64,000 bases of DNA. Source: a virus. Numbering within the stretch: the stretch's first letter is position 1; each line of letters starts with the position of its first letter. Under the pieces are notes generated by a model, which was not told the origin of the DNA, made no database searches, and saw only the letters and a program-made list of their open reading frames with translations. The DNA is taken from IMG/VR virus record IMGVR_UViG_3300032770_000014, positions 29,617-93,616 of that record; one strand, 5' to 3'. The position numbers were made by a program, and so were the translations under genes. Positions 7,369-34,716 of the stretch are shown here, piece by piece.

Positions 7369-8157
7369 ATGGCATTCGACATCTTCAAAGGCGGCAAGCT
7401 CGCGCCAGTTCACCTGCCGTGGCACGTCGCCCTCAGTGACCACCTTGACGCCGCCGCCAGTTGGCCCCCAGTCCCGCCGCAGGGATGGGAATACGCCGTA
7501 CCCCAGTCCGAGATGAGTGTGCTCGGCAACGACCAGTATGGATGCTGCGCCGAGTCCGGAGCGTGCGGCCTAGCGCAGATACAAAGCTGCAACGCTAATC
7601 CCACTGACCCCTTCGTTCCCACGACCGCCGAGGCGCTGGCGCTCTACACTGCCGTCACCGGGTTCAACCCGAACGATCCGAACAGCGACCAAGGGACAGT
7701 CTTAACCGACCTGCTCACCTACTGGCAGAACACCGGCTTCGAGTTGACTACCCGCTCCGGCAAGACGCGCCTAAGCCAGATCGTCGGGTGGGCCTCGCTC
7801 GACATTTCCAGCTTCGCGCTGCTGCGGTGGGCCGCGTACACGTTCGGCGGCTCCTACCTTGGCATCCAGTGCCCACAGAAGTGCGAGACGGACACAACCA
7901 ACTGGAACTTCGGTCCTGGTCTGCCTATCGCTGGCGGTCACTGCATTGTGCAAGCGGGCGAGGGCGCAGCTGGCGGCAAGATGCGCACGTGGGGTCTGTT
8001 CATTCCCGCATCGGCTGGCTTTATGGGCGCGTACATCGACGAGGCCTATATCATTTGCTCAAAAGACTGGGTTAATAATCAAGATAAGAGTCCGTCAGGC
8101 TTAAATCTGGATAGCCTTCTTGCAGCAATGAAACTAGCGGGATCGAGTTCACAATGA
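7369..8157 (+). CDS. Papain-like cysteine peptidase-like protein, 3' end replaced
   Basis: 262 residues. The segment LGNDQYGCCAESGACGLAQ (residues 52-70) matches the start of papain-like or C39-like folds with a catalytic Cys (C60, less likely C59). GGHCIVQAG supplies the expected His (H191) and TWG follows at 207-209. I infer a cysteine hydrolase, plausible as a lysis or peptidoglycan-processing enzyme given its neighbours, but it could be an inactive fold. From about base 8047 (residue 227 onward) the codons become AT-rich, unlike the rest. The final residues SPSGLNLDSLLAAMKLA closely resemble the C-terminus of the downstream endonuclease, so this 3' end appears to have been imported with that element. 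ATGA overlap with it. Confidence 0.6.
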   Translation: MAFDIFKGGKLAPVHLPWHVALSDHLDAAASWPPVPPQGWEYAVPQSEMSVLGNDQYGCCAESGACGLAQIQSCNANPTDPFVPTTAEALALYTAVTGFNPNDPNSDQGTVLTDLLTYWQNTGFELTTRSGKTRLSQIVGWASLDISSFALLRWAAYTFGGSYLGIQCPQKCETDTTNWNFGPGLPIAGGHCIVQAGEGAAGGKMRTWGLFIPASAGFMGAYIDEAYIICSKDWVNNQDKSPSGLNLDSLLAAMKLAGSSSQ

Positions 8158-8900
8158 GTAGAGCGAAAATTCATTCCGGCGTTTGCCTTGCCTGTTGTTG
8201 CTCTTTCCCATCCGAGAGAACCAAGACACAATTTTGTAGTCGAAGCTGTGCATCGAAGGCTACGCAGCGTATGCGCAAGGAACGCGGAGACTTTAAAAAC
8301 AAAATCTTGGATCATGTAATTCTTCGCGCAGTGAATTTAATTAACTCAGGTATGACTTGGAAGAACGCGGCCAAAGCTATAGGGTTGGACCATACGACCT
8401 TGCGCAAAAGAGTTAGACTCCTTGGTTGTCCTGTTCGCCGTGGACTCCGTGGCAGCAGACTACCAAGGACTTTGAATGTTCCCACCGATGACGCTACTCT
8501 AGCCTATATTGCAGCGATGATTGATGGAGAGGGATCAGTCCAAATGTGTAGGGGGAAACGGCTCTCGCTTTGCGTCTACATTTACAACACTAGTCTTGAT
8601 TTGATGAAATGGCTTGCTTTGGTTGGCGGCGTGTATGTGCCTCGGCACACGTTGCCGCATCGTAAGCAGGGCTATGAGTGGCGAGTAAAAGGCAGGGAAG
8701 ACGCCCTTGCTTTGCTCATGGCCGTTGAGCCTTTCATGATTATTAAAAAGAAACAGGCCCACGAAGCTATTGAATTTTTGCAAAGGGAAATCGGAAAGAA
8801 CTATTTCAACGCGCAAAACGTATCACCAACGGGCTTGAATCTCAACAGCCTTGTCGCCGCCATGCAAGCGGCCAAGCGCAACAGACCACCTGCAATTTGA
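8154..8900 (+). CDS. LAGLIDADG homing endonuclease carrying a captured gene 3' end
   Basis: 248 residues. An N-terminal zinc-binding segment (CLACCCSF, then CSRSCAS) and a helix-turn-helix (MTWKNAAKAIGLDHTTLRKRV) precede a LAGLIDADG-type motif (YIAAMIDGEGSV, about residues 119-130). Single-motif enzymes of this type normally act as dimers and make a staggered cut that drives copying into empty alleles. Codons are AT-rich up to about residue 222. The last 25 residues (SPTGLNLNSLVAAMQAAKRNRP...) are GC-rich and resemble the C-terminus of the upstream protein, so they look like the original 3' end of that gene now fused to the endonuclease. The downstream gene's ribosome site (AAAAGGAG) follows directly. 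Confidence 0.75.
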   Translation: MSRAKIHSGVCLACCCSFPSERTKTQFCSRSCASKATQRMRKERGDFKNKILDHVILRAVNLINSGMTWKNAAKAIGLDHTTLRKRVRLLGCPVRRGLRGSRLPRTLNVPTDDATLAYIAAMIDGEGSVQMCRGKRLSLCVYIYNTSLDLMKWLALVGGVYVPRHTLPHRKQGYEWRVKGREDALALLMAVEPFMIIKKKQAHEAIEFLQREIGKNYFNAQNVSPTGLNLNSLVAAMQAAKRNRPPAI

Positions 8901-23106: not shown

Positions 23107-23145
23107 TGCCAATCCCCCCTTCACATAGTTGCTTTGTATTTACTT

Positions 23146-23265
23146 GCTCCAGCTCCGGCTCCAGCTCCGGCTCCCGCTCCGGCTCCAGCTCCGGCTCCCG
23201 CTCCCGCTCCCGCTCCCGCTCCGGCTCCGGCTCCGGCTCCGGCTCCAGCTCCAGCTCCGGCTCCT
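23146..23265. repeat. Hexanucleotide tandem repeat, 20 copies of GCTCCN
   Basis: Twenty consecutive GCTCC(A/G/C/T) units lie just upstream of the Sak4-like gene. On the minus strand they read as Glu-Pro/Glu-Leu/Glu-Arg dipeptides in a frame (GTG at 23272 to 23078) that would overlap the first bases of the ATPase gene; on the plus strand they read as Ala-Pro. Whether either is translated is unclear. Such arrays change copy number by slippage and could tune expression of the gene downstream. Confidence 0.8.
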
Positions 23266-23308
23266 TACCCACCCAATGAACAAGACGGCTTGATTCATGC
23301 CCAGCCTC

Positions 23309-24025: not shown

Positions 24026-24258
24026 GAGGAAAACGGGGGAGGAGGGAGATTATTTTTCTCTGCTGTCTGCTCTCTGGCCTGTTCCTCCGCCCGCTCCTCT
24101 TCCCACTCCCTGACCGCCGCTTCGCACTCCTGTCGGGCCTCGTCCTCGGTCCGCCCCCAGCCATAGAACCGGGTCTCCTCCTCGCGGTCGGCGAGAAAGG
24201 CCAGCCAGTCGTGCGAACGGTCAGGGATGGGCGGGAAGACGGGGCAAAGAGTAATCAC
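24022..24258 (-). CDS. Small hypothetical protein
   Basis: 78 residues starting at a GTG that overlaps the previous stop (GTGA). The pattern DWLAFLADREEETRFYGWGRTEDEARQECEAAV resembles short phage proteins with a W.A...E....GWG.TE.EA signature. The C-terminus is a Glu/Arg helix followed by PPPPFSS. Unknown function. Confidence 0.5.
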   Translation of the reverse strand: MITLCPVFPPIPDRSHDWLAFLADREEETRFYGWGRTEDEARQECEAAVREWEEERAEEQAREQTAEKNNLPPPPFSS

Positions 24259-24497
24259 TTGACTGACTCCTCGGCCGGCTCCCCCGCCTGTCCCAGCTCC
24301 CCCAGATTCTGCGTCAGCCACTTATGCAGACACCCCTCCCCGCACAGGATATCCCCGCCCTCGTGCGCCTCACTGAGCGAGTAACTCAGAATGACAAGGG
24401 ACTGGCGCCCGCCTCCGTGCCGCCCGAGGAACCAGTGATTGCAGGCCTGCCTGACCGCTCCGCAGAGGTCGCACTTGGCTATGGTTTCAATGGCCAT
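24255..24497 (-). CDS. Zinc-ribbon protein
   Basis: 80 residues. CDLC (9-12) and a second CGEGC pair (about 52-56) with nearby His residues make a treble-clef or ribbon zinc site. The start codon lies inside the end of the HNH endonuclease gene, in the part derived from the nuclease gene's original 3' end, so the ancestral nuclease gene and this one were probably coupled. Confidence 0.55.
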   Translation of the reverse strand: MAIETIAKCDLCGAVRQACNHWFLGRHGGGRQSLVILSYSLSEAHEGGDILCGEGCLHKWLTQNLGELGQAGEPAEESVK

Positions 24498-25212
24498 CGA
24501 TCTCGACCAGCCCTTCCTTCGGGTGGTTAGGCCTTTCTGACTCAGGCCACAAAATTTCGTTAATGATCCTACTCACATGCGCTGGATGGCAACCAAACAT
24601 CTTGCCTAACTCCTTTTGGTTGGCCTGCTTTTCACGGTAGAGAGTTCTCATCCGACCTACATCCTCCCAAGTCAAGTGGCGCTCGTAAGGATTCGTCCGT
24701 CCATTGCGGTGCGCAGCTCGCCATATCTCACAAACGCTCCTCACCTTCTTCCGCTTGCGCCGCATTTCTGCCACGTCGTCAGGAGTTGCGGTAAGAAGCC
24801 ACGCAATCTCAGTTTGGGAGCGCCCTTCATCAAAAAACCATACAGCAATCTGATCCATTTGCTCAGGAGTAAAATGATGTTTTCGGTTACCAATTTTGAA
24901 CGCATGGTGTTGGTTGCCTTGAACTGTGACGTATTCCAGATTCTCTGGGTTATTGTGTGTATGTACAGCATCAAGGTGGTTGACTTGGTAGCCTATTGGA
25001 CGCGGACCAATAAACGCCGCTGCAACCAAAAAGTGAACATAAGCTCGTGCTTGGTCGCGCTGCTTACCGCCTGGTAGATGAACTACTGGATAACCGTTTC
25101 CTGTAGCAGGACTAGCCTTCAACACTCTCAGTGATCGGACTCGTCCAAGTGAACTCACCTGTAACCTTCCTTCAAATCCAGGAACATCCCTCCAAACCTC
25201 TTGATTGTCCAT
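24487..25212 (-). CDS. HNH homing endonuclease (NUMOD4 type) with captured 3' end
   Basis: 241 residues. The opening EVWRDVPGFEGRLQVSSLGRVRSL is a NUMOD4 domain. The HNH core is YQVNHLDAVHTHNNPENLEYVT (about 85-106), and two helix-turn-helix-like repeats follow (EIAWLLTATPDDVAEMR; ELGKMFGCHPAHVSRII). Codons are AT-richer than in the host genes. The last residues (RPNHPKEGLVEIDGH) parallel the C-terminus of the upstream nuclease (VPNHPKENVLVQIQEK), so the enzyme appears to have inserted near that gene's 3' end and kept the original end as its own C-terminus. Confidence 0.8.
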   Translation of the reverse strand: MDNQEVWRDVPGFEGRLQVSSLGRVRSLRVLKASPATGNGYPVVHLPGGKQRDQARAYVHFLVAAAFIGPRPIGYQVNHLDAVHTHNNPENLEYVTVQGNQHHAFKIGNRKHHFTPEQMDQIAVWFFDEGRSQTEIAWLLTATPDDVAEMRRKRKKVRSVCEIWRAAHRNGRTNPYERHLTWEDVGRMRTLYREKQANQKELGKMFGCHPAHVSRIINEILWPESERPNHPKEGLVEIDGH

Positions 25213-25224
25213 AAAGCAACTGTA

Positions 25225-27207
25225 CTACTTTTCCTGAATCTGGACAAGTACATTTTCTTTTGGGTGGTTTGGAACTCTCGTCCTGAAGTGTTCTAATACA
25301 GCAGGATCATGCTCTGGGTCGGGGGGACCAAAACAAAATCCTGGCTGAGTTGGCATACTTCTGAAATTACAAACTCCAGGATATGAACAGGCGGTCCGCG
25401 TCTGTGGAAAATATTTGTTTAACGCACTCCTTTTGGAGGAATAGCCGCCTTCACGTTCGGCCTGTCTGACCTTCTCTACATCTTGCGCGACTTGCGTTTC
25501 GGCGCTTGCGAGTTGCTCCAGCAGGTCTAGGGTCTCGTCCCGGTTGCGATATTGCACGAGCACCGGCACCAGTTGCTCGGCCAGCGCGTCCAGCTCCTCG
25601 CCATCCTCTCCGAGCGCGCCTTCTTGAACCTTACCCTGATCCAAGAGGTCGATCCACTCGGCCACCTTCATCGTCCTCCACACGGGACTCTTCTGCCACG
25701 ACCGGTAATCCAACCTTCTCCCCCTCCCCGACTCGTCCTTCCACTCGTAGGTCCAGGCCCAGCGCCGGTCGTCCGAGGTGATCCCTTCCTGCTTGTAGGC
25801 GCGGACCAGCACCGACTCCTGATTCCAGCGCGGCTCTCCGGGCTGCGCCTTCTTGTTTTCCTTCCGGCTGCCCTTGAGGAGGTATTCGTAGCGGACGCCG
25901 AGGACGGTGGGGGGGTCAGGAAGGGAGGAGAGCCAATCAGCAGTACGGTCTGAGACCAGCTCGCCGATTCTTGTTTGTAAGATATTTACTTTCGCTGACA
26001 ATTCCTCCATGCGGGAATGATCAAAGTCCGAAGCGCCAGCAGAGTCAATACAAGTACACTCTTCCCGATACTTTCCGCACACGCGACACTCGTGGTCTTC
26101 TCCCAACTCATCATAATGAGCGTCTTCTTGCATCTCAGATGCGTGCTGCTCGGCTACTTCCTTCAATTCCCGCTGTAGATCCCACGCCCCTTCCAGCCTC
26201 TTCTCCACGTCCACCGCCTCGCTCAGACCCTGCATATCGACCTGCGCGTCCAGTTCCTTCCTGCGGTCCCACGAACCGGTGGTCTTGAACGACTGTAGAT
26301 AGAGATAGCCGGTCGATCGTTCGTGCAGCAGAGCGTCGTGGCGGGAGAGGAAATGCAACTCGAACTCTACACCACTCCCCCCACATTTGGGACAAGTCAG
26401 CTTAACGGAGTGGTCAAACGTAGAGTCAAACTGCAGCTTACCGCCAGCACAGAATTTGCAAGGCTCCTCTGCCAATTTCCAACAGCCCTCTCTTTCCACT
26501 TCCAAAATGGTGAACGCCTCGTGGATTCCACGCCATCGCCTTCTCGCCCAGCACCTCACCATCGCCTCGACCAGCGCGGCCATCTCTTCCTTCAACCACT
26601 GGTCCTGATCGAACGGCTGATACTGTGCCACTCCCCCCGCGGTCGATTCCATGTTGCACGCAACCGCGACAGGTGGTACCGCTCCTGGCGCCAGATCCCC
26701 AAACTCCACCACGATCGGCGACTCGGCCGCCGGGCCACCCCTTGCAATCGGATTCGCCATCAGATCCGCGAAGTCATTGACCACCTCGGGCTGACCCCCG
26801 GCGACCGCTGCCGCTGCCTGCCTCTGCCTAGCCTCTTCAGGGTCTAACTCGACTCCCTCGGACCACTCGGCGGTGAAGTCGGCAAGGGCCGCAGCGACAG
26901 CGCGATCCTCGATCTGGCGCGCAGCAGTTTGGCCGTCACCATAGCGGTAATCGAACAGTGCAATCAACTGGTCGGCTAGGGACAGCTCTGGATACTTTTT
27001 GGAAATGTTGTCGAGACCCTGTTGGCCATCGCGCAACAGGATTTCCATGCCGCTGTGCACCGCCGACCCCACGACCAAGTGACTCGACTTCCTCGCCGGC
27101 ACGAGTCCGACCCCAGCAGCGCCCTCGTGATACTCTAGCCATCTAAGACGGCGGCATCTCTGGGCAGCCTGTACTCTCGACCGATCCGTGAATATCGTCT
27201 GTGTCAT
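25225..27207 (-). CDS. Cas4/AddB-like PD-(D/E)XK nuclease with Fe-S cysteines
   Basis: 660 residues; start MTQTIFTDRS overlaps the previous stop (ATGA). C18 (QRCRRLRWLEY) with three C-terminal cysteines (ACSYPGVC...PGFC) gives the four-Cys Fe-S arrangement of Cas4 and AddB nucleases. Other motifs are GSAVHSGME (motif I region) and RHDALL followed by LQSFKTT (the D...QxK catalytic pair). Two further Cys clusters (CKFC...CPKC; CRVC...CTC) form an inserted zinc-binding region. It probably processes DNA ends for Sak4-type recombination or replication. From about 25440 to the stop the codons become AT-rich, including the Fe-S cysteines, consistent with import together with the adjacent HNH gene. 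Confidence 0.75.
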   Translation of the reverse strand: MTQTIFTDRSRVQAAQRCRRLRWLEYHEGAAGVGLVPARKSSHLVVGSAVHSGMEILLRDGQQGLDNISKKYPELSLADQLIALFDYRYGDGQTAARQIEDRAVAAALADFTAEWSEGVELDPEEARQRQAAAAVAGGQPEVVNDFADLMANPIARGGPAAESPIVVEFGDLAPGAVPPVAVACNMESTAGGVAQYQPFDQDQWLKEEMAALVEAMVRCWARRRWRGIHEAFTILEVEREGCWKLAEEPCKFCAGGKLQFDSTFDHSVKLTCPKCGGSGVEFELHFLSRHDALLHERSTGYLYLQSFKTTGSWDRRKELDAQVDMQGLSEAVDVEKRLEGAWDLQRELKEVAEQHASEMQEDAHYDELGEDHECRVCGKYREECTCIDSAGASDFDHSRMEELSAKVNILQTRIGELVSDRTADWLSSLPDPPTVLGVRYEYLLKGSRKENKKAQPGEPRWNQESVLVRAYKQEGITSDDRRWAWTYEWKDESGRGRRLDYRSWQKSPVWRTMKVAEWIDLLDQGKVQEGALGEDGEELDALAEQLVPVLVQYRNRDETLDLLEQLASAETQVAQDVEKVRQAEREGGYSSKRSALNKYFPQTRTACSYPGVCNFRSMPTQPGFCFGPPDPEHDPAVLEHFRTRVPNHPKENVLVQIQEK

Positions 27208-27425
27208 CTCTCCTGTTCCCCCTTCTCCTCTTCTTGCTCCCCCTCCGCTTCCCTCCACTCGGCCTCCCGCGCCGCCTTCTCTTCTCTCTCCTGGGCCAGC
27301 TTCCCTTGGATCATCCCCACCGTCCGGCAGACCTGCTCCCAGTTCGTCGCCGGCCGGATGCCTGGCTGGTCGAGGGGTTGGGGCGGAGGGAGAGAGGAAT
27401 CAGAACCATTTTCACAACCATTCAT
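27204..27425 (-). CDS. Small Glu-rich coiled-coil protein
   Basis: 73 residues. The N-terminus is polar and Pro-rich; residues about 40-73 are an uninterrupted charged helix (KLAQEREEKAAREAEWREAEGEQEEE). First gene of the minus-strand early operon, with GGTGAT just upstream and the promoter at 27441-27470. Overlaps the nuclease start. Confidence 0.5.
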   Translation of the reverse strand: MNGCENGSDSSLPPPQPLDQPGIRPATNWEQVCRTVGMIQGKLAQEREEKAAREAEWREAEGEQEEEKGEQER

Positions 27426-29336: not shown

Positions 29337-30194
29337 TCACTGCCTCCCTGCCACCTCCCCCGCCACCTCTAGCTTGCACTCCGCCGCCGTCTTCCAGACC
29401 GCTCCCCGCTCCCCTCCGACCCCTCGGAACTGCCAGCCTCCCAGGACTTGCTGAATCCGTCCGGCCAGCCGTCCCTGCTGCCTGACTTCGATAACGATTC
29501 GCACCCGGCCATTGGGCAACGGCTTAACAATACGGCGGAAATCGATCCCCTGATCTGTCATACTGGACTTGTGACCCTCGCCGTTGAGTCCGTCCCGCTT
29601 GTTCTGACCCCTCGACTTTTGCATCTTCCTCCTCGTGCCTCTACTGGCACTACCACCACCACCACTGCCACCGCTACCACCGTCGAACCACCCGCCTGCG
29701 CGATCCGCTGGCCTTCGCTCGGCGTCCAGCTCCGATTCCAGGTCTCCCTCTCTGGCGACGGCGTGCCCAGTTCCCTCGTCCTCCCTCGCCAGCCCATCAG
29801 CATCAGCCCCCCGCGGTGGATTCCCAGCCAGACCATTCGCCTCTGCTCCGACCTCATCCCTCCCTACCCCCCGCGCCAACTCCCCTCTCGCCGACTGTGG
29901 TTCTGCTGCCCGAGCCGCGGCTGCCATCGCCGCTGCTCCCGGCTCTACCTGCCCGACCGCGCTGGCCGCTTCCGCTGCCGCCTCTGCTACCACCTCCAGC
30001 ATGCCTCCCTGCTCCAGCATCGTCACCGGCTGGTCGCCGCAGCCCGAGCCCCCCTGCCCCCCTCTACTCTTCGCCTCCTGCCGGCCCTCCCGCTCTGGTA
30101 CCGTTGGCACACGAACGGGAAATGGTGGAAGAATTGCTGGCGCGGCGCGGAGTGGGAAGTCGTTATGGAGCAGCCGTTGCCCTAAGAGGAACAC
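29337..30194 (-). CDS. Hypothetical protein, conserved-looking C-terminal domain
   Basis: Up to 285 residues; the start is uncertain (30194 overlaps the upstream gene by 32 bases, and internal starts near residues 59 or 65 are possible). The first two thirds are Ala/Gly/Glu-rich and probably disordered. The last 70 residues (GIDFRRIVKPLPNGRVRIVIEVRQQG, then a VLGGWQFRGV segment) look like a compact beta domain. Strand choice rests on this domain and on the orientation of neighbours; a long plus-strand frame across the same DNA was rejected. Confidence 0.4.
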   Translation of the reverse strand: MFLLGQRLLHNDFPLRAAPAILPPFPVRVPTVPEREGRQEAKSRGGQGGSGCGDQPVTMLEQGGMLEVVAEAAAEAASAVGQVEPGAAAMAAAARAAEPQSARGELARGVGRDEVGAEANGLAGNPPRGADADGLAREDEGTGHAVAREGDLESELDAERRPADRAGGWFDGGSGGSGGGGSASRGTRRKMQKSRGQNKRDGLNGEGHKSSMTDQGIDFRRIVKPLPNGRVRIVIEVRQQGRLAGRIQQVLGGWQFRGVGGERGAVWKTAAECKLEVAGEVAGRQ

Positions 30195-34628: not shown

Positions 34629-34716
34629 AATCCTCTTCCCTTCCGCGCGGACTTGTGACCGCGCTATGTGCATTAGACGGCCTGAGTTGGCAGGCCGCTC
34701 ACTCTGCTGTGCTTTG

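Follow-up and report, generated by a model that had tools for sequence, protein, structure and literature searches.

Displaced gene ends on free-standing homing endonucleases: probable terminus replacement at a viral nuclease gene, with parallels in other phages and prophages

The window analysed here is a stretch of 64,000 nucleotides of viral DNA (positions 29,617 to 93,616 of IMG/VR record IMGVR_UViG_3300032770_000014). On its minus strand, a nuclease gene, an HNH endonuclease ORF and a zinc-ribbon-like gene follow one another closely (Table 1): 12 bp separate the nuclease from the HNH ORF, and the last codons of the latter overlap the start of the zinc-ribbon-like gene. The HNH is a separate ORF with its own start and stop, and the nuclease upstream is closed by its own stop; the C-termini quoted for both proteins in the initial annotation are as it gave them. 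The HNH ORF matches Pfam NUMOD4 (5.2e-11) and HNH_3 (4.7e-10) as well as phrog_59 (1.3e-39, residues 1–225), and the conserved catalytic H/NH/N residues are present; judging from these features, it is a NUMOD4/HNH_3 free-standing homing endonuclease, cleavage and homing being predicted activities. As a single query against IMG/VR, it retrieved no close HNH relatives. The nuclease gave no Pfam, PHROG or PDB match above cutoff, so that its name, Cas4-like, rests on its cysteine pattern; the zinc-ribbon-like gene gave no Pfam or PHROG match. Relatives of the nuclease, none of them in cultured phages or bacterial genomes, are present in loci L002–L006 and have in common a Cys-rich end and the conserved terminal motif of the family, R-x-x-(N/H)-H-x-x-E, which is found in five HNH-free nuclease ends.

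Table 1. Features of the nuclease–HNH locus and of the LAGLIDADG-like locus (window coordinates)
Feature	Position	Strand	Description
Cas4-like nuclease, host (target) gene	25225..27258	-	677 codons, large; C-terminal Cys cluster; ends FRTRVPNHPKENVLVQIQEK, stop
Nuclease, AT-rich last 72 codons and stop	25225..25443	-	putative imported replacement 3' end (from GC3)
NUMOD4/HNH_3 ORF	24487-25212	-	241 codons; ends ESERPNHPKEGLVEIDGH, stop
HNH homing endonuclease core (NUMOD4 + HNH_3 + HTH)	24541..25212	-	Pfam and phrog_59 matches
Captured tail SERPNHPKEGLVEIDGH, stop	24487..24540	-	putative displaced native nuclease 3' end, fused in frame to the HNH; resembles the nuclease end and the L002/L003 family ends
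Zinc-ribbon-like gene	24255..24497	-	80 codons; start codon within the captured HNH tail
Host gene, phrog_19005 family	7369..8157	+	last 32 codons AT-rich, putatively imported
LAGLIDADG-like endonuclease core (LAYIAAMIDGEGSV)	8154..8816	+	phrog_5046 1.7e-15; LAGLIDADG_3 weak, 0.023
Captured tail NVSPTGLNLNSLVAAMQAAKRNRPPAI, stop	8817..8900	+	putative displaced native end (comparison with endonuclease-free L012)

The terminus of the nuclease gene is present twice, on either side of the endonuclease ORF. The nuclease ending, VPNHPKENVLVQIQEK, and the ending of the HNH tail, RPNHPKEGLVEI, have an in-frame stretch in common, PNHPKE-(N/-)(V/G)-LV(Q/E)I, in which about 12 residues match and whose DNA reads CCnAACCACCCrAArGAA..CTnGTCnAGAT. 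The protein score of this pair, 44, stands well above unrelated pairs. By DNA alone, the two tails score 13, whereas 300 shuffles gave scores of up to 16, the match being too short, and the case therefore rests on the protein match, the base composition and the relatives. HNH relatives in phages align only up to about residue 222–226 (phrog_59 up to 225), which argues that the last 17 residues of the ORF are an add-on.

The composition of the two copies differs as the initial annotation had described it. GC3 falls to 0.375 in the last 72 codons of the nuclease versus 0.686 in the rest of the gene (reached in 0 of 20,000 permutations), and the interval 24487–25440 comprises the HNH gene plus this AT-rich nuclease end; the HNH tail, which indeed includes the next gene's ATG, has a higher GC content than the core (GC3 about 0.6 versus 0.3–0.4 in the N-terminal half). 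At the same place, five HNH-free relatives of the nuclease have a GC3 of 0.53–0.79 and lack an AT-rich end, bearing in mind that such ends could in principle arise without import. The initial annotation had proposed HNH-free relatives as the test of its reading: the outcome that would have refuted it, an HNH-free nuclease ending like the AT-rich copy, was not observed, but the ending of the nearest HNH-free nuclease, that of L002 (REANHPQELVQIENS, stop; 55% identity over the best segment), resembles the two window copies to about the same degree. Since L002 is, moreover, too distant, it neither refutes nor proves the polarity of the exchange, and the direction in the window rests on composition and analogy; by these, the present nuclease end would be the imported one and the HNH tail the native one.

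Such an analogy is provided by the same genome, where the initial annotation had pointed out the same architecture with an unrelated nuclease family. The pair 7369–8157/8154–8900 ranked first in a scan of neighbouring ORFs for common C-termini; the host gene ends SPSGLNLDSLLAAMKLAGSSSQ and the LAGLIDADG-like endonuclease VSPTGLNLNSLVAAMQAAKRNRPPAI, each followed by a stop. Here a relative is informative: L012, whose host gene is 79% identical and which has no endonuclease, ends SPTNLNLDSLIAAMKAAKANIPPSN (short form KSPTNLNLDSLIAAMKAAKANIPPSN), so that the AAKxNxPP ending is common to L012 and the endonuclease tail and is missing from the present host-gene end. Over 68 bp, the endonuclease tail is about 75% identical to L012 versus about 53% for the present host end (hand count on the alignment). 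GC3 in the last 32 codons of the host gene is 0.31 versus 0.78 upstream, and the L012 end is not AT-rich (0.69). Comparison with L012 thus supports the view that the native ending would now reside on the endonuclease, and the claim of a second instance stands. In L014 (3917–5779), another member of the phrog_19005 family, an apparent intein with an HNH-like segment interrupts the coding sequence; this family is therefore a target of two kinds of homing element.

Tails of this type are also found in other free-standing phage endonucleases, as the initial annotation had suggested checking. Among 251 distinct NUMOD4-HNH ORFs, drawn from 256 loci, nine carry an in-frame copy of a neighbour's terminus versus 0.20 expected under a cross-locus null (protein score of at least 44, 843 comparisons). 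Four are 3' captures, in which the C-terminus of the upstream gene is copied (the window, L075, L219 and L253), and five are 5' captures, with a copy of the downstream gene's N-terminus (L004, L023, L032, L055 and L251). The junction of most 5' captures immediately precedes the conserved E-(V/I)-W of the HNH, implying that the HNH has lost its start and uses that of the host gene. A three-frame scan around the HNH ends gave 20 hits versus 0.16 expected and added eight cases where the displaced terminus is out of frame, untranslated or a separate remnant: L029 (NinG-like), L031 (MetK), L041 (exonuclease), L143 (PD-(D/E)XK, Cas4-like), L151 (DnaB-like helicase), L158 and L159 (terminase, up to the P-loop) and L224. 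In total, 17 of the 251 ORFs show end captures or remnants, at 3' and 5' ends, a figure that may be biased upward and is not an unbiased frequency since the loci were partly seeded with capture cases. The duplicated stretches are short, about 12–28 codons. For the prophage cases L219 and L253, genome relatives were only distant or lacking. Two further hits, L068 and L138, were left out because they were doubtful (an unlikely ORF, low complexity).

These data support 3'-end capture as a real phenomenon: this genome contains two instances, whose endonucleases belong to families unrelated to each other, and there are further instances in unrelated phages and prophages. The recurrence put forward in the initial annotation is thereby borne out, but not its restriction to 3' ends, because about half of the cases concern 5' ends.

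Several surveyed loci deserve mention in their own right. In three phages (L041, L067 and L075), a NUMOD4-HNH immediately follows a metallophosphoesterase-type exonuclease gene, the same in all three; the gene end is captured in frame in L075, left as a remnant in L041 and un-captured in L067, which makes this a recurrent insertion niche. In L158 and L159, an HNH precedes the terminase together with a partial terminase N-terminus that breaks off at the P-loop (LLYGG); these truncated copies are likely mis-annotated as separate small genes. In L143 (813–2376), a NUMOD4-HNH is flanked by two copies of the Cys-cluster 3' end of a PD-(D/E)XK/Cas4-like nuclease, which independently parallels the case in the window.

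The direction of the exchange can be read from close relatives in three cases. The first 140 codons of the L075 exonuclease are about 92% identical in DNA to those of the HNH-free Enterococcus phage phiEG37K (LC625742, L257), and the later codons about 53%. phiEG37K has no HNH core at the corresponding position, and identity resumes inside the L075 HNH tail: this tail and the next gene match the native exonuclease end of phiEG37K and its next gene at 95.3% over 255 bp, so that the tail corresponds to the native exonuclease end of phiEG37K. The 3' two thirds of the L075 exonuclease most likely came in with the HNH. In L055, the HNH-fused start, MELSKYIKSESVELNRSAIHFAGYKP, is identical at 24 of 26 positions to the native ParB start of L267, and some 30 HNH-free ParB relatives start with MELSKYIKSESVELNRSAIHFADYNPR or close variants, that is, with the sequence now found at the HNH start. 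The present ParB start of L055 (codons 1–22) is closer to the L295/L296 lineage (16/26), whereas the ParB body is that of L267 (213/218 identical). In L296 and L297, a related HNH (68/166) lies un-fused directly upstream of ParB, which is the donor-like state, as a donor should look. In L023, the upstream flank plus HNH start and the downstream flank are 82% and 86% identical, respectively, to HNH-free L314, but the whole dUTPase gene is of the L310 type (79%), unlike its L314-type flanks. As far as sequence comparison can establish it, these relatives prove for L075 (3'), L055 (5') and L023 (5') that the native terminus sits on the HNH and that the present terminus of the host gene is imported. 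A dUTPase gene is also associated with an HNH in L258 (Caldibacillus phage CBP1, 2115–2714), where an HNH of a different type lies directly downstream; the L023 dUTPase is affected at its 5' end. The idea that these elements target conserved sites is unsupported in ParB, the only family tested, whose insertion window, at rank 219 of 239 for DNA conservation, does not stand out as conserved.

Taken with the three cases in which relatives reveal the mosaic product at the level of sequence, the window locus is quite likely to have arisen by entry of the HNH into the terminal codons of the nuclease gene together with a diverged replacement terminus, the native end being displaced to the HNH tail along with the start codon of the neighbour. 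As the HNH would have brought the replacement, the nuclease would have stayed complete, with an imported end. The route that we infer, including cutting, repair, immunity and mobility, is as follows. The endonuclease would cut an endonuclease-free relative inside the coding sequence, near the gene end, and repair of the break would use as template a donor in which the HNH lies next to a diverged version of that gene. On the gene side, a crossover within the gene would bring in the donor's gene end; on the other side, where there is little homology, short matching stretches would link the HNH to the terminus cut in the recipient, in many cases in frame at the start or stop codon of the HNH itself. 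This would leave a complete host gene whose foreign end probably escapes further cutting, with the displaced native end attached or adjacent to the HNH and next to the old downstream neighbour.

A further proposal, compatible with this terminus replacement since it concerns the retention of the tail, is that selection acted on the captured tail specifically to keep the downstream gene translated. The position of the zinc-ribbon gene's ATG in the tail, the exact conservation in L075 of the native overlap of the next gene, ATGACATCTAAG, and the nine in-frame cases out of 17 speak in its favour. However, the displaced termini are out of frame or untranslated in the other eight, the in-frame excess over one third is weak, and in the 5' cases there is no start further downstream that would need preserving, the start in use being that of the host gene itself; we therefore consider this proposal unlikely. 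Selection for in-frame fusion only is rejected by the eight non-fused remnants. In-frame fusion is common, as is protection of the neighbour's start codon, but neither is obligatory, so that the initial annotation, which had seen in the architecture a strategy preserving both the target gene and translation of its neighbour, described a frequent outcome but not a rule.

Two similar ends flanking the HNH would also be left by tandem duplication in situ, if the nuclease end had been doubled locally at the insertion of the HNH, by a long staggered cut or slippage, and the copies had later diverged; the shortness of the duplicated stretches would suit such an origin. Yet the copies differ from each other far more than the native copy differs from other phages: in L075, the present host end is about 53–67% identical to phiEG37K, compared with 95% for the tail and next gene. 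Moreover, the imported segments match a different lineage (L310 for the L023 dUTPase, L295/L296 for the L055 start) and can cover much or all of the host gene. Local duplication is already refuted for L075, L055 and L023, and we hold it to be very improbable for the window.

Even less credible is the idea that the HNH tail belongs to the C-terminal region of the HNH family itself, its similarity to the nuclease end being fortuitous. The small number of matching residues and a DNA similarity not above that of shuffled sequences would be in keeping with it, but the HNH homologues stop short of the tail, the tail fits the terminal motif of the nuclease family, a second instance with an unrelated endonuclease exists in the same genome, and the survey found nine in-frame copies where chance predicted hardly any. 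Finally, a self-splicing intron or intein holding the endonuclease, with the repeats as splice-related sequences, is the least probable reading of all: many homing endonucleases within coding sequences are borne by introns or inteins, and an apparent intein does occur in L014, but no Rfam intron was found in the window or at the 16 case loci, so that a group I intron is rejected for want of an intron RNA fold, and nothing needs splicing, given that the upstream gene is closed by a stop of its own and that there are two copies of the terminus.

Terminus replacement as such has precedents. Phage 21 and e14 in icd are incoming elements that carry a replacement 3' end and displace the native one; unlike the elements described here, they rely on a site-specific integrase and comprise a whole prophage, not a homing endonuclease. 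In fungal mitochondria, replacement of gene ends by mobile endonuclease ORFs (mORFs) has been published (PMC3630166; also PMC4019555), first for Allomyces atp6 and then for Glomus atp6, atp9, cox2 and nad3 (PMC3630166). The foreign origin of the ends is backed by phylogeny, and the Glomus atp6 copies are 91% identical in protein versus 63.5% in DNA (PMC3630166). As we propose for our cases, the endonuclease ORF brings a foreign C-terminus and the native one is displaced downstream; the fungal ORFs, however, are mitochondrial, encode LAGLIDADG or GIY-YIG enzymes and are reported at 3' ends only (PMC3630166), whereas those described here lie in dsDNA phages and prophages, are mainly of the NUMOD4-HNH type, affect 5' and 3' ends, and often carry the displaced end in frame on the endonuclease, sometimes overlapping the start of the next gene.

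The T4-type Seg and Mob enzymes resemble the present ones in being free-standing, in the HNH class of Mob, in a target often lying in a neighbouring gene and in homing by double-strand-break repair; the passages that describe them in PMC2988022 present them as intergenic insertions and mention no duplication or replacement of a host-gene terminus. The ShiLan element, an out-of-frame HNH inserted internally in phage methylases, likewise lies within a phage coding sequence with no support for an intron or intein, and the sequence that follows the insertion site is similar to the first 11 residues of the element; in contrast to our cases, the insertion is internal, the host gene reads through and no replacement terminus is described (PMC11855218). 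We found no report of end replacement by endonucleases in phages in the open-access literature, some of the searches being narrow. The general principle is already known from fungal mitochondria.

A broader generalization is conceivable and is offered tentatively: terminus replacement might serve phage homing endonucleases in general as a means of targeting coding sequence without splicing, in which the element supplies a diverged, probably cleavage-resistant gene end and the endonuclease uses the displaced ends as a translation start (5') or as coupling and homology arms (3'). End replacement suggests, in any case, a way to live in coding sequence without intron or intein. Most descriptions place free-standing phage homing endonucleases between genes; an appreciable minority here (17/251, in a maybe-biased sample) lie inside gene ends. 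Such end-swapping HNHs are a source of chimaeric phage genes (nucleases, dUTPase, ParB-like, helicase and terminase genes) and of mis-annotated gene ends, and the captures give testable predictions of HNH cut positions.

Two other features of the window were recorded. A GC-rich hexamer-like repeat (ctccggctccag...) at 23140–23270 encodes Glu-Pro/Ala-Pro repeats in several frames and adjoins the start of a Sak4-like gene, and a type-P5 twister ribozyme (Rfam RF02684, 47 bits, E 1.2e-6) is located at 34647–34708 on the minus strand.
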